Assembly: GCA_947481685.1 (NCBI GenBank)
Contig: CANKHA010000005.1
Span: 62,001-126,000, forward strand
Length of the DNA: 64,000 nucleotides
Source: Bradyrhizobiaceae bacterium
Lineage (GTDB): Bacteria; Pseudomonadota; Alphaproteobacteria; Rhizobiales; Xanthobacteraceae
Direction of reading: 5' to 3'
The position numbers and the translations under genes were made by a program. Numbering within the stretch: position 1 is the first letter of the stretch; each line of letters begins with the position of its first letter. The notes under the pieces are model-generated. The model made no database searches, was not told the origin of the DNA, and saw only the letters and a program-made list of their open reading frames with translations. Of the stretch, positions 37,231 through 45,478 are shown in pieces.

Positions 37231-38811
37231 TCAGGGCGTTGCAGGTTTTGCCCCGGCTTCGAGCGCGGCGAGTGCGTCCTGCAACAAGCGTTTTGTCCGC
37301 TCCTGAGCGCCCTTGTCGAGCAGCTCCAGATCGAGGAACAGGTCCATCCCCGGCACATGTTCGCTGATCACGCTGGGGCGCTGCTGGACGTCCTTGACCA
37401 GCCCATCGACCACATAAGGCACGATCATGCGGCTGATGCCTTTCATCGCGATGGGCTCCTGCGGCCGCGCGCGAACGATGTCGCGCACCAGCGCGTAGGT
37501 TTCGTAAGACAACACGATACCACCCGGTTCGGCATTGGCTTGTAACCGCGCGGCGAGGTTCGCCTCCGCGCCGATGATCGTGTAATCCATGCGGTCGTCG
37601 CTGCCGAAATTGCCAACGTTGCAGAAGCCGGTGTTGATGCCCATGCGCACGCGGAACGGCTGCTCCACGCCGCGCTTGCACCATTCGCCGTTGAGCTGGG
37701 AAATGCGCTTCTGCATGGCGACTGCCATCAGCAGGCATTGCTGCGCGTCTTCGCTCACGCCCCTGGTTTCGGGATCGCCGAAGAAGGCCACCACGGCGTC
37801 GCCGATGAACTTGTCGACGGTGGCGCCGTATTCCGACGCGATCTCGGACATCGCTGTGAGATATTCGTTTAAGAGCGCGGTCAGGTCTTCCGGCTGCAAC
37901 CGCTCGGTGGTGGCGGTGAAATCCTTGATGTCGGAAAAGAAGATCGTGAGCTTCTTGCGCTCGGTGACGATGGTCACATCCCGCTGGCCCGAGAAAATGC
38001 TCTTGTAGATCTGCGGTGACAAATACTTCGCGATCTTCATCGAGATGCTGGCGAGAAAATCGTTGGCCTCGGTCAGGTCACGATTGGCGCCCGCGATGGC
38101 TTTCTGTTGCTTGCGCTGGAGGGCGACGAAGGTAATGCCGATAAGCGCGGCGAGCGCGAAGTAGAGCATCAGGTACTTGAACGAGAAGATATTGGCGGCG
38201 ATCGGCTGCTCCACGGAAATTTCCTGGATGCCGCGCACATCGCCGACCTTCCAGTCCTTTCGGGGGCTGTCGGGGTGGCTGTTGTGGCAACTGACGCAGC
38301 CGGCCGCCATGATCACGGGGCCAGCCGCGCGAATCCGGCTGTCGAAAATAGACCCGGAGACTTCCACCACCTGCGCCTTGGGATCTTTCCGCAGCGTGGC
38401 AAGAGCGTCCGTCTCGAACCCGTCGAGCTTGTGGGTTTCGCGACCCTTGAACGGCAAGTCGGACAGGAAGCTGTATTTCACTGCGCCATCGCGCGCGGTG
38501 ATCAGCTTGCCGAGTTCGATAGAAAGGGTAGCGGGGATCGGGATGCCGCCCGGGACGTCTCGGTAGTTGCTGGTCGGGATAGCCTCGTGCTGGACCAGAA
38601 CGCGCCCCACCACGTCGCTGGCGTAGAAATTCCGCATGTCATTGATGATGCGCCCGACCTCGTCGGCCTGACGCCGCAGGATGCTTTCGGACAGGTTGCG
38701 CAAATCGAGCCAGGCCGCGAACGGCAGGCCGGCAAGCAGCAGAATGACAAGGCACACCACAAGAGGACCGGAACCAGACTCGCGGCCGGCTGACTTCTGC
38801 GTCGGTGTCAT
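37231..38811 (-). CDS. Membrane class III adenylate cyclase with haem-type Tll0287-like sensor
   Basis: 526 residues. Membrane helix (about 16-35), a periplasmic sensor domain (about 40-205), a second helix (about 211-232), then the cyclase domain (about 284-450). The sensor contains CVSCHNSHPDSPRKDWKVGD (CxxCH at about 172-176) as in DUF3365/Tll0287 haem-binding domains. The cyclase has metal Asp residues in FFSDIKDFT and FIGDAVVAFFGDP. The purine-specifying Lys (VDKFIGD) and Asp (MDYTIIG) are those of ATP-using enzymes, with Asn and Arg in AEANLAARL. Predicted to make cAMP in response to a haem-bound ligand or redox state; the ligand is unknown. Confidence 0.88.
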   Translation of the reverse strand: MTPTQKSAGRESGSGPLVVCLVILLLAGLPFAAWLDLRNLSESILRRQADEVGRIINDMRNFYASDVVGRVLVQHEAIPTSNYRDVPGGIPIPATLSIELGKLITARDGAVKYSFLSDLPFKGRETHKLDGFETDALATLRKDPKAQVVEVSGSIFDSRIRAAGPVIMAAGCVSCHNSHPDSPRKDWKVGDVRGIQEISVEQPIAANIFSFKYLMLYFALAALIGITFVALQRKQQKAIAGANRDLTEANDFLASISMKIAKYLSPQIYKSIFSGQRDVTIVTERKKLTIFFSDIKDFTATTERLQPEDLTALLNEYLTAMSEIASEYGATVDKFIGDAVVAFFGDPETRGVSEDAQQCLLMAVAMQKRISQLNGEWCKRGVEQPFRVRMGINTGFCNVGNFGSDDRMDYTIIGAEANLAARLQANAEPGGIVLSYETYALVRDIVRARPQEPIAMKGISRMIVPYVVDGLVKDVQQRPSVISEHVPGMDLFLDLELLDKGAQERTKRLLQDALAALEAGAKPATP

Positions 38812-41424: not shown

Positions 41425-43098
41425 ATGAATTCCACAAAAATGTGGCTGCTGGCTGGGACAAGTTTCGCTGCCGTGCTTTTGCAGGGCGACCTGCGCGCGC
41501 AGGCGCAAACTGTGGCGGCGGCGCTGAGCGGGAAAGTGACGTCGGCGGAAGAGCCGGTCATGGAAGGGGTGGTCGTCAGCGCCAAGATGGATGGATCGAC
41601 GAAAACCATCTCCGTGGTGACGAACGACAAGGGCGAATACAGCTTTCCGGCGGCGAAGCTCGAGCCGGGTAAATACAAAATCTCCATCCGCGCCGCCGGT
41701 TACGATCTCGACGGTTCCAACAGCGCCGATGTAACAGCGGCGGGCGGCAAGGCCGACCTGAAACTCGTCAAGGCGAAGAATGAGGCGCTGCAACTCTCGA
41801 CCGCCGAATGGCTGATGAGCGCGCCGGGCCTGTTGGACAAGCAAAAGGCGACGCTCGGCGGCTGCCTTGGCTGCCATACCTTGCAGCGTCCGTTCATGTC
41901 CAAATACACCGCGGAGGAGTGGCCGGCGGTGTTCCAGCGCATGGGCTTCTACTATCAGGGCAGCGTCCCGACCAAGCCGCAGATGCTGGTGCAGGGCGGA
42001 GCACGGGGCGAACGCGTGCGCGTGCGGGATGATGCCCAGAAGACAATGTCCGAATGGCTCGCCAAGTCCAATCTCAGCGCCGGTGACAAGCACAGCTTCG
42101 AGTTCAAGCGGATTCCGCGTCCGAAAGGCCGCGCCACCCATGTCGTCTATACGGAATACGATCTGCCCCGGAAGGACGCCGAGCCACATGACGCCATGCG
42201 TGGCCCCGACGGCAACATCTGGTACTCGGATTTCGGCGAGCTGATGGTCGGCTCGCTTGATCCCAAGACGGGGAAGGTCACGGACTATCCGCTGCCGGTG
42301 ATGAAGCCGGAAGAGCCGAAAGGCACGCTCGCGCTCAGCCTCGACAAGCAGGGCAATTTCTGGATCGCGGCAATGTATCAGGCCGGTGTCTACAAATTCG
42401 ACCTGAAGACCAAACAGGCCACGCCTTATCCCTTCCCGAAGGAGTGGCAGACCAACAGCACGCAGGCGTCGATGGCCACGGCGACGAATTCCCACGTCGA
42501 CGGCAAGGTGTGGGTCGTCAACAACGACACCCACAATCTCTACAAGCTCGACGTTGCGACCGGGCAATACACCGACATGGGCGTGGCCACCGATGCCAGC
42601 GGCTCGCATATCAGCGGCTATGGCATGCCGACGGACTCCAAAAACAATGCCTATCTGCTCGAACAGGGCAACACGCGCATCGGCCTCGTCGATGCCAAGA
42701 CCAATGTCACCAGAATATGGTCCACGCCGACCGTAGGCTCGAAGCCGCGCCGCGGTCGTGTGGATGACTAGGATCGCGTGTGGTTCGGTGAATTCGCCGG
42801 CGGCGCGATCGGCATGTTCGATCCGAAGACCGAGAAGATCAGGGAATGGCAGCTGCCGACACCGTGGAGCGGGCCTTACGATGCCGAGCTTTCCAAGAGC
42901 GGTGACGCCTGGGCGGGCTCGATGTACAACGATCACGTTTCGCGCGTGATCACGACGAAGGACGAGTTCGTCGAGTATCTGTTGCCGCGCCCCACGAATA
43001 TCCGACGTGTGTTCGTGGACAACACGACGAGCCCGGCGTCGCTCTGGATTGGCAACAACCACGGCGCGGCGATTATTCACGTGGAGCCGACGGACTGA
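41425..43098 (+). pseudogene. Paralogue of exported haem/beta-propeller protein, interrupted by TAG
   Basis: A strong GGGGAGG site and signal peptide start a reading frame equivalent to the gene at 8559-10235: regulatory beta domain (LSGKVTSAEEPVMEGVVVSA), haem motif GGCLGCHTLQR, and the propeller. At 42769-42771 the codon is TAG, between GRVDD and DRVWFGEF. In the paralogue that position is Glu (VDEEGKVWF). The frame then continues without further change to a natural stop at 43098 (NNHGAAIIHVEPTD). One substitution (G or C to T) accounts for the stop. Translation would give a 448-residue product missing the last propeller blades. Recent pseudogene or sequencing error are the likely explanations. 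Confidence 0.85.
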
Positions 43099-43589: not shown

Positions 43590-44093
43590 TTGAGCTACTT
43601 CAAGCAGGGGAAAAACGAGCTCGGCGGCACCAGCGCGGGAGGCGAGCCAAGGCTCGTCGGCAATCCGGTGCCCGAAGATACGTCGCCGGAAAATATCTCG
43701 ACGCTTGGCCGTAACCTCACGATTACGGGCAACATCGTCTCCGAAGGCTCCGTGCAGATTTTCGGACGCGTCATTGGCGATATCCATGCGAAAAGCCTCA
43801 GCATCTGCGAAGGCGCGCAGGTCGAAGGCAATGTGATGGCGCAGGAAACCGTCATTCGCGGCCAGTTCAAGGGCGTAATCCACAGCGACAGCGTCAAGAT
43901 CCAGGGCCGGGCCTCCGTCGAGGGCGAGATCTTCAACAAGTCGTTGAGCGTTGAAGAGAACGCCCAGTTCGAAGGCATGGCGCGGCGGCTCGAGAAGCCG
44001 GTGGTTGCGCCGTCCAATATTCAGGCAAAGGCTGAGAAGCCGGCCTGGGCCCAGACCGCCGATGTCGTGCCGTTTAACGACGGCGTTCGCTAG
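43590..44093 (+). CDS. Bactofilin (polymer-forming cytoskeletal protein)
   Basis: 167 residues starting at TTG 43590, preceded by a perfect Shine-Dalgarno AGGAGGG at 43579-43585. The central domain (about 38-135) is a beta-helix of repeated short strands: LTITGNIVSEGSVQIFGRVI, SLSICEGAQVEGNVMAQETV, VIHSDSVKIQGRASVEGEIF, SLSVEENAQFEGMARRLE. Bactofilins polymerise into cytoskeletal filaments that position cell-wall enzymes and envelope structures. The disordered N- and C-termini fit the family. A strong terminator follows. Confidence 0.93.
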   Translation: MSYFKQGKNELGGTSAGGEPRLVGNPVPEDTSPENISTLGRNLTITGNIVSEGSVQIFGRVIGDIHAKSLSICEGAQVEGNVMAQETVIRGQFKGVIHSDSVKIQGRASVEGEIFNKSLSVEENAQFEGMARRLEKPVVAPSNIQAKAEKPAWAQTADVVPFNDGVR

Positions 44094-44128
44094 TTCTGAT
44101 TGATCCGGCAAGCGGGATCGCAATTCCG

Positions 44129-44164
44129 AGCTTCAGGTTCTCACGCAGAACCTGAAGCTTTTTT
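44129..44164 (+). terminator. Rho-independent terminator after bactofilin
   Basis: AGCTTCAGGTTCT pairs perfectly with AGAACCTGAAGCT (13 pairs, 5-base loop), followed by TTTTTT. Confidence 0.95.
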
Positions 44165-44377
44165 GTGCGCACCGGCGTTTCTGCTTATAGCACTGACTAC
44201 CGGCATGCTGGCCGACCCACTCTCGGGCGAATATGGTGTCAGTTATTGCTGACCAGGCCCAAGGATATTTCATCTCCCGTCATTGGCCCAAAGGGCAATG
44301 CCCTTGAGGATAAAATATTCGCTACAGATTCTGATGTTCCTTTTAAACCCCGCAGCCTCACTGACGGGAAGGTGCCC

Positions 44378-45478
44378 ATGCGCAACCCCATTCTTTTCCT
44401 CGTAGCAGCCGCGCTCCTTGTTGGCGGTCCCTGCGCAGCGCAACCGGCGGGCGTTGCGGACGCCGGCTTTTCCGTTCAGCGGGAGTTGGTCATCGGCACC
44501 AAGCAGGCGCCGCCTTTTGCGATGAAATCGAGCGACGGCAATTGGTCCGGGATCAGCATCGACCTTTGGCGCCATATCGCTGAGCAGAACAAGTGGCAGT
44601 TCCGTTTTGCCGAAGAAGAGACGGTTCAGGACCTGATCGACGGCGTTGCCGGGGGGAAGTTTGACGTCGCCGTGGCGGCGCTGACGGTTACCGCACCGCG
44701 CGAGAACATGCTCGATTTCACCTCATCGTTCTTTGGGACGGGCCTTGGCATCGCCGTATCGTCCGGTCGTGATCCGAGCTGGGCACCGGTTGTACGTACC
44801 CTTACGTCCTTCGGATTCATACAAGCGGTGCTCGCGTTGGTTGGTCTCGCCCTCGCCGTCGGATTGATCGTCTGGCTCTTCGAGCGTCGTCACAATGAGG
44901 ATTTCGGTGGCGGCGTCGTGAAGGGGCTCAGCAGCAGCGTGTGGTGGACTACGGTCGCGATGACGCAGCGCGGGATCGGGAATTTCGGTCCAAGAACTTT
45001 TCCCGGTCGCGCCGTTGCCATTTTGTGGATGGTTGGTTCCATCATTGCGATCGCCGTATTCACCGCCGGTATTACCTCGGCGCTTACGGTGAGGCACCTG
45101 CAAGGGACGGTGCAGGGTGTTACGGATCTGTCGGCGGTGCGCGTCGGTGTCGTGGCCGGATCGTCGACCGAAGACACGCTGAAGCGGATGCGGGTGAGTT
45201 ATGATGGGTTTGCAAATGCCAGGGACGGGCTGCGGGCCGTGCGACAAGGCGAAGTTGACGCATTTGTCTATGACAAGCCTCTGCTCGCATGGGTCGTGAA
45301 TCAGGAATTCCGATCGACTGTCCAGTTGCTCGATGTGACGTTCGATCCGCAGAACTATGCTTTTGCGCTGCCGAACAACAGCCCGCTTCGAAAGCCACTC
45401 AGCGTTGCCATTCTGAACGCCGTGCAGAGTGACTGGTGGGACCGCACCCTGTTTCAATATCTGGGATCGATGCGTTAG
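44378..45478 (+). CDS. Prokaryotic ionotropic glutamate-receptor-like channel
   Basis: 366 residues from ATG at 44378 (GGGAAGG site); upstream in-frame sequence looks non-coding. Signal peptide (1-20), then binding lobe S1 (about 30-138), membrane helix M1 (about 146-166), a re-entrant pore loop (about 186-206), membrane helix M2 (about 210-234), then lobe S2 to the end. This SBP-TM-P-TM-SBP order is the GluR0 plan. Ligand-type residues are present: Arg in TAPRENMLDF, the GVVAGSSTED loop, and Asp in EVDAFVYDKP. The pore reads TTVAMTQRGIGNFGPRT, where K+ channels have TxTTVGYGDxxPxT. GYG is therefore GIG and Asp is Asn, so K+ selectivity is doubtful. Most likely an amino-acid-gated channel. 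Confidence 0.82.
   Translation: MRNPILFLVAAALLVGGPCAAQPAGVADAGFSVQRELVIGTKQAPPFAMKSSDGNWSGISIDLWRHIAEQNKWQFRFAEEETVQDLIDGVAGGKFDVAVAALTVTAPRENMLDFTSSFFGTGLGIAVSSGRDPSWAPVVRTLTSFGFIQAVLALVGLALAVGLIVWLFERRHNEDFGGGVVKGLSSSVWWTTVAMTQRGIGNFGPRTFPGRAVAILWMVGSIIAIAVFTAGITSALTVRHLQGTVQGVTDLSAVRVGVVAGSSTEDTLKRMRVSYDGFANARDGLRAVRQGEVDAFVYDKPLLAWVVNQEFRSTVQLLDVTFDPQNYAFALPNNSPLRKPLSVAILNAVQSDWWDRTLFQYLGSMR

Follow-up and report, generated by a model that had tools for sequence, protein, structure and literature searches.

The step from a K+ pore to the non-selective pore of glutamate receptors is usually argued from a comparison of GluR0 with animal and plant receptors. GluR0 (Slr1257 of Synechocystis) is a glutamate-gated K+ channel with the segment order S1-M1-P-M2-S2, without amino-terminal domain (ATD) or M4, and it carries the filter of K+ channels (PMC2950845, PMC3483616). 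The physiology of GluR0 was published in 2026, in a study that made use of the K+-uptake-deficient E. coli strain LB2003 (PMC13099474). Croset 2010 counted 23 prokaryotic iGluRs in 971 genomes (PMC2924276), and Ger et al. 2010 distinguished 12 prokaryotic iGluRs with a K+ filter from 10 others ('Group 2'), which they judged to be nearer to the eukaryotic receptors (PMC2950845). In that paper 'Group 2' shows glutamate-receptor topology, a conserved Arg and Asp and a P region that its authors matched to no known selectivity, and the same holds for the protein described here.

This protein is encoded in a window of 64,000 nucleotides (the whole stretch of DNA analysed) from a Bradyrhizobiaceae bacterium. 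Based on the open reading frame, Pfam and homologues, the gene at 44378-45478 on the plus strand is complete (ATG at 44378, stop codon 45476-45478) and encodes an iGluR-like protein of 366 aa. The motif GGGAAGG at 44366-44372, just 5' of the ATG, reads as a likely ribosome-binding site. The N-terminus (residues 1-21, 44378-44440) is a putative signal peptide, as residues 8-21 are hydrophobic and the pLDDT is low there. The first binding lobe S1 (residues ~35-144, 44480-44809) holds T103, T105 and R108, which are ligand contacts by analogy. It is followed by the transmembrane helix M1 (145-169, 44810-44884; AlphaFold2 model and hydropathy), the pore helix (180-196, 44915-44965; AlphaFold2 model), which stops right before Q197, and the filter loop QRGIGNFGPRT (197-207, 44966-44998, with the Q197 codon at 44966-44968; alignments). 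The second transmembrane helix M2 (208-242, 44999-45103; AlphaFold2 model and alignment) corresponds to M3 of eukaryotic receptors, and the second lobe S2 (243-364, 45104-45469; Pfam, AlphaFold2 model and alignments) contains G261-S262-S263 and D299. All these features lie on the plus strand.

In Pfam, SBP_bac_3 covered residues 37-363 (4.7e-19) with Lig_chan nested inside at 155-253 (1.8e-15), both above the cut-off, and Ion_trans_2 was barely at its cut-off (22.6 vs 22.5 bits). Features of a prokaryotic iGluR were found, namely a two-lobe SBP_bac_3 domain interrupted by a TM-pore loop-TM segment, the Arg of S1 and the Asp of S2. The product of 44378-45478 is a complete prokaryotic iGluR homologue (lobe, M1, re-entrant pore helix, M2, lobe), which bears out the GluR0 architecture proposed in the preliminary description. 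As in GluR0, there is no ATD, S1 starting at about residue 35 (Pfam, AlphaFold2 model), and no M4 after S2, the last helix of the model ending at residue 362 of 366.

AlphaFold2 was run as a single chain on an alignment of 70 rows, and the model (mean pLDDT 90.7, pTM 0.79) placed M1, the pore helix, the loop and M2 between the two lobes. Among solved sequences NpGluR0 (1.5e-28) and GluR0 (1.1e-19) came closest with their binding cores, followed by an AMPA receptor over residues 70-351 (6.1e-18). NpGluR0 was the best match of the binding lobes in both sequence and structure, its solved chain (2pyy) being a binding core only. The top three of VIA-align included 2pyy (Z 28.9, 1.8 A, 212 residues) and GluR0 1ii5 (Z 28.6), with the lobes matched. 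The Arg and Asp ligand contacts of GluR0 (PMC2950845) are retained as well. With Foldseek against the PDB the 50 matches listed were all AMPA receptors (364-388 columns aligned, best E 6.4e-23, 18-21% identity). The TM-scores of these listed matches by query length were 0.52-0.69 and the rmsd 4.9-10.8, and therefore the domains stand at other angles in the model.

The segment WWTTVAMT-QRGIGN corresponds to residues 189-202, with QRGIGN at the place of the filter TVGYGD that GluR0 carries. For comparison, 161 loci gave 156 aligned proteins after removal of a duplicate (L001, equal to L051), the frame-split L017 and L033/L101, and the second piece of L016. The sample was centred on the window protein and weak matches were fetched in part, so that counts outside its own clade describe the sample. 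A K+ filter was present in 20 of the 156 rows (17 TVGYGD, 2 TIGYGD, 1 TTGYGD) and the rest have other loops. Against these 20 rows the window protein differed at four of the six filter positions (197, 198, 200 and 202) and shared only G199 and G201, confirming the earlier reading that the K+ filter is lost. The accompanying statement that prokaryotic iGluRs normally keep this filter was not upheld, given the 20 of 156 rows here and the 10 of 22 proteins without it in PMC2950845.

The preliminary description dealt with one protein, and we found that the variant is a trait of a whole Rhizobiales clade. This clade comprises 70 rows whose K+ filter is replaced by MTQ or MTR, of which 50 come from the family of the window (all matches at E<=1e-100), 15 from a wider contig search and five from another family of the same order. 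None of the 70 Rhizobiales relatives had a TVGYGD-type filter. Position 197 was Gln in 66 and Arg in four of the 70 rows; at position 198, 38 rows had Ala and 32 had Arg. Residues 199-204 differed strongly between subclades, the loops being QRGIGN/H (5), QASTG (23), QRSSAE (15), QAGA (15), QRAAGG (4), RRG (4) and singles (4). The four rows with Arg at the position level with the Q/R site read MTRRG. The ligand contacts were conserved throughout (R108 and T105 in 70/70, D299 in 69/69 with one gap), and the side-chain site varied at residue 262 (S 41, T 28, R 1) and at residue 263 (S 33, A 30, P 5, T 2); therefore the ligands may differ between members of the clade.

Among 391 genomes of the host family, a homologue was present in 68 at E<=1e-15 and, with 50 matches in total, in 49 at E<=1e-100. 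One full-length copy is found in the host assembly (3.26 Mb, 107 contigs), where the sole other match was 79 residues long (E 3e-5). A lone mutated copy or a sequencing error as the origin of QRGIGN was rejected, as the filter change is common to the 70 relatives. Broken relatives were also seen. L017 and G194 (L033/L101) are split across two frames and lie outside the 70. L016 breaks after residue ~280 and L012 is matched only as far as residue 335; these two are within the 70, since their loops read through.

Other loops were found outside the clade. Paracoccus denitrificans has ITSGRTARKN, a cyanobacterium (Kovacikia) LIGQDVTMPR and Photobacterium ITKGPFNYFE, all unlike QRGIGN; these are presumably the kinds of organism behind the 'Group 2' accessions. 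In the tree described below, rows with TSGR- and GQ-type loops fell outside the 70-row clade. Three proteobacterial rows, those with a name coming from outside the class, had an ITKGPFNY or ITRGPFNY loop, one of them on the Photobacterium plasmid. A second alphaproteobacterial iGluR clade (eleven rows, here the LATQ clade) has the loop TLATQ(A/G)(D/E), two residues shorter, and one more row joins it with an LVAQ variant. In family f5, which is kin to the Rhizobiales clade, three rows had a degenerate Pro/Gln- or Pro/His-rich pore loop and are perhaps pore-less receptors. The variant had been thought undescribed, and for the loop this stood: no description of a QRGIGN-type loop was found in the literature searched. 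For the class it did not, since filter-less prokaryotic iGluRs have been in print since 2010 ('Group 2', PMC2950845).

When the pore segment alone was searched with phmmer, plant GLR3.4 (3.8e-8), GluN1 (7.4e-7) and GluA2 (2.4e-6) all came ahead of Kv2.1 (3.5e-5). The segment QRGIGNFGPRTFPGR was aligned to NSGLGEGAPRSFSAR of GluN1 (chain 5un1_G) ungapped, with 6 of 15 residues equal, and MAFFT reproduced this alignment. Against GluA2, Q197 stood opposite the first Gln of MQQG, and HMMER required a one-residue gap further on. Q197 was thus level with the GluN1 Asn and the GluA2 Gln (HMMER, MAFFT), residues that by receptor numbering we take to be the Q/R/N site. The preliminary description had pointed out a likeness to the Q/R site with a reserve about homology of the position; these alignments put Q197 level with that site. 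The Q/R/N site overlaps the filter of KcsA and GluR0 (PMC3483616). The loops of GluN1 and GluA2 also have in common with the window protein a Gly two residues on, followed by Pro-Arg and by a distal Arg. They differ in that the window protein lacks M4 and the ATD and has Gly201 where animal receptors have an Asp four residues on (PMC12226733).

Pore profiles were also compared. The top 60 matches of the K+-filter rows were all K+ channels by name except one 'Lmo2059 protein' (best 5.3e-15), and those of the LATQ rows were all AMPA receptors (best 3e-8). The profile of the Rhizobiales clade gave a mixed result (GLR3.4 2.9e-11, Kv2.1 1e-7, GluN1 1.2e-6, GluA2 3.2e-6, KcsA 3.7e-6), and judged by these scores its pore is intermediate between glutamate-receptor and K+-channel pores.

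A tree was built without columns 193-208, that is free of the loop; it was a quick, unrooted tree with SH-aLRT supports and no bootstrap. The 70 clade rows formed one group (90), the support being 95 with the three degenerate-pore f5 rows added and 98 with four further f5 rows. Four K+-filter rows adjoined the clade and the f5 set (84-88). The four Arg197 rows formed one subclade (99), and a single genomic change therefore suffices by parsimony. Constraining all non-K+ rows into one group was rejected (delta lnL 109, AU p 3e-9); this test used 47 non-K+ and 19 K+ rows after thinning and removal of 10 long, degenerate or broken rows, with the labels taken from the loops and assigned ahead of the tree. 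The K+ filter was lost more than once. A change from K+ filter to Gln loop would be the parsimonious direction, though not a proven one because the tree is unrooted. The clade and the adjoining K+-filter homologues would then be a bacterial case of the filter change usually argued from GluR0, with Gln at the decisive position.

On balance we lean towards the window protein being an amino-acid-gated, non-K+-selective inner-membrane channel of a Rhizobiales iGluR clade, in which a Gln loop replaces the K+ filter. In this clade a loop that has Gln level with the animal Q/R/N site would have taken the place of the K+ filter, and four subunits would assemble in the inner membrane around a pore like that of an inverted K+ channel. 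An amino acid, bound by the conserved backbone contacts and in the window copy by the Gly-Ser-Ser side-chain site, would close the periplasmic lobes and pull M2 open. In other receptors of the family ligand closure opens the helix equivalent to M2, and we carry this over to the window protein by inference. As the TVGYG cage is gone, K+ selectivity is not expected of the pore, which should pass small monovalent cations with weak selectivity, and ligand binding would lower the membrane potential. In the window protein Arg198 follows Gln197 and residues 197-204 include no acid; low conductance and poor Ca2+ passage are therefore predicted for this copy. Relatives with Ala198, 23 of 38 of which have Glu193 in the pore helix, would be expected to conduct better. 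If this reading is true, soil bacteria can respond to an amino acid by depolarisation rather than by K+ passage of the GluR0 kind.

A more far-reaching proposal, which we hold to be doubtful, is that a non-K+-selective, amino-acid-gated channel whose Q/R-type position is functional either arose in Rhizobiales or is common to them and eukaryotes through descent. This position would be mostly Gln, with Arg fixed in the genome in one subclade, and would determine conductance and the passage of Ca2+, a role that RNA editing plays in animals. In animal receptors Gln at the Q/R/N site accompanies Ca2+ passage and four Arg give poorly conducting homomers (PMC12226733). Shared descent was addressed in a tree with eukaryotic receptors and the 52 bacterial rows left after removal of 10. 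Constraining plant GLR3.4 and GluN1 to the Q/R clade was not rejected (AU p 0.28), and constraining them to the LATQ clade was weakly rejected (AU p 0.028). In the free tree both were on long branches, apart from the Q/R clade, in the half that holds LATQ, other loops and three K+-filter rows. If the proposal is true, these proteins represent a minimal bacterial AMPA/NMDA-like pore without M4, ATD or auxiliary subunits. The clade offers a natural Gln/Arg difference in about 70 small single-polypeptide proteins, in which the filter step is directly testable.

A non-conducting receptor, whose pore is sealed by the Arg-bearing loop and which either signals through its conformation or just binds ligand, seems rather unlikely to us. 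Arg198 of the window copy is without a balancing acid, and the degenerate loops of the f5 relatives also fit such a receptor. From the poorly conducting Arg homomers of animals (PMC12226733) it follows that the channel may hardly conduct; the openings of GluA2(R)/gamma-2 are mostly of 3.5 pS (PMC6754398). Against a sealed pore, 38 of the 70 members have Ala instead of Arg at 198, and A226, T229 and T237 of M2 are invariant in the clade and in the 81 rows that include it. Moreover, no cytoplasmic signalling domain was found in the Pfam scan of the protein, and no neighbour gene is widely common.

Constraint on the pore bears on the same question and was measured as amino-acid-variable columns in 186-205 against those in the binding domain (Fisher), the p-values being guides only since the rows share kinship. 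Clusters were formed blind to the loop, from binding-domain identity alone (60% cut, at least 5 rows), and all five lay inside the clade. In a cluster of 15 rows (QRSSAE) 0/20 columns varied vs 110/228 (p 5e-6), with 13 of the 20 columns varying in codon; the pore helix and loop were the least variable part there, 14/51 columns varying in M1 and M2. The cluster of 23 rows gave 7/20 vs 170/228 (p 5e-4) and the other one of 15 rows 4/20 vs 107/227 (p 0.02). Pore constraint was not significant in the cluster of 6 rows (10/20 vs 132/227, p 0.49) and in that of 5 rows, four of which have QRGI loops (7/20 vs 135/228, p 0.057). At a 70% cut, the p-values of five clusters were 5e-6, 2e-5, 0.004, 0.02 and 0.16. 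The QRGI set gave 2/20 vs 139/228; sets chosen by their loop have the invariance of the loop columns partly built in, and they match groups of the loop-free tree, in this case its 5-row group. In the LATQ clade the pore columns were no less variable than the binding domain (13/18 vs 149/227, p 0.8). Constraint on pore helix and loop is thus clear in the large subclades and not significant in small clusters such as the nearest kin of the window protein. Three of the five loop-blind clusters speak against a decaying pore in the clade, and the two others leave room for it.

It is improbable that the channel is anion-permeable or mixed, with Arg198, or Arg197 in four relatives, pulling anions into the pore. 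The net charge over residues 197-207 is +2 in the window protein, and a P_Cl/P_Cs of 0.14 has been cited for GluA2(R) in the absence of auxiliary subunits; with gamma-2, however, negligible Cl- flux was inferred (PMC6754398). An acid in 197-204, though absent from the window copy, is present in 20 of the 32 Arg198 rows, which argues against anion passage.

That K+ selectivity is retained through an unconventional filter is very unlikely. The clade sits among K+-filter proteins in the tree and G199 and G201 preserve both filter glycines in the window copy, but the K+-filter residues Thr197, Val198, Tyr200 and Asp202 have been lost, and across the clade Gly occurs at 199 in only 24/70 and at 201 in 33/70 rows. 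The best K+-channel score of the clade pore profile was 35.2 bits, compared with 58.2 for the K+-filter rows.

The iGluR-like gene seems to be a solitary one, with a bactofilin gene (43590-44093, plus strand) directly upstream and a 164-aa ORF downstream. A terminator-like hairpin with a T-run at 44128-44170 (plus strand) separates the bactofilin and iGluR-like genes, weakly supported with 1 found vs a shuffle mean of 2.0. The window was compared with 19 other loci on raw open frames, in which a short partner could escape; among the 14 largest clusters only the channel gene and its antisense or shadow frames were found in more than 5 of the 20 loci. The bactofilin gene was absent from the frames common to the other 19 loci in the clusters listed. 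An ABC-importer substrate-binding protein with incidental membrane anchors and no channel is hardly credible, even though the name 'transporter substrate-binding domain-containing protein' is given to 15 of 19 plasmid relatives, as M1, pore helix and M2 are inserted between the lobes in the AlphaFold2 model, the nine window neighbours scanned include no ABC component, no neighbour is common to more than 5 of the 20 loci and no NCBIfam model scored above its cut-off. A missing pore loop or an ABC system had been named in advance as what would speak against a channel; the loop is present in the homologues and in the model. The iGluR family is obscured by its database annotation. Two of the 19 plasmid matches are close (Rhizobium tumorigenes, 54% identity), one of them with MTQASTG.

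In three loci a frame family encoded on the opposite strand adjoins the channel gene, and in a fourth it is found further off. Elsewhere in the window, a gene with CarboxypepD_reg and virginiamycin-B-lyase-like regions (41425-43098, plus strand) has an in-frame TAG at 42769-42771, after which the frame continues to 43098. At 37231-38811 on the minus strand an adenylate/guanylate cyclase with an N-terminal Tll0287-like domain is encoded.
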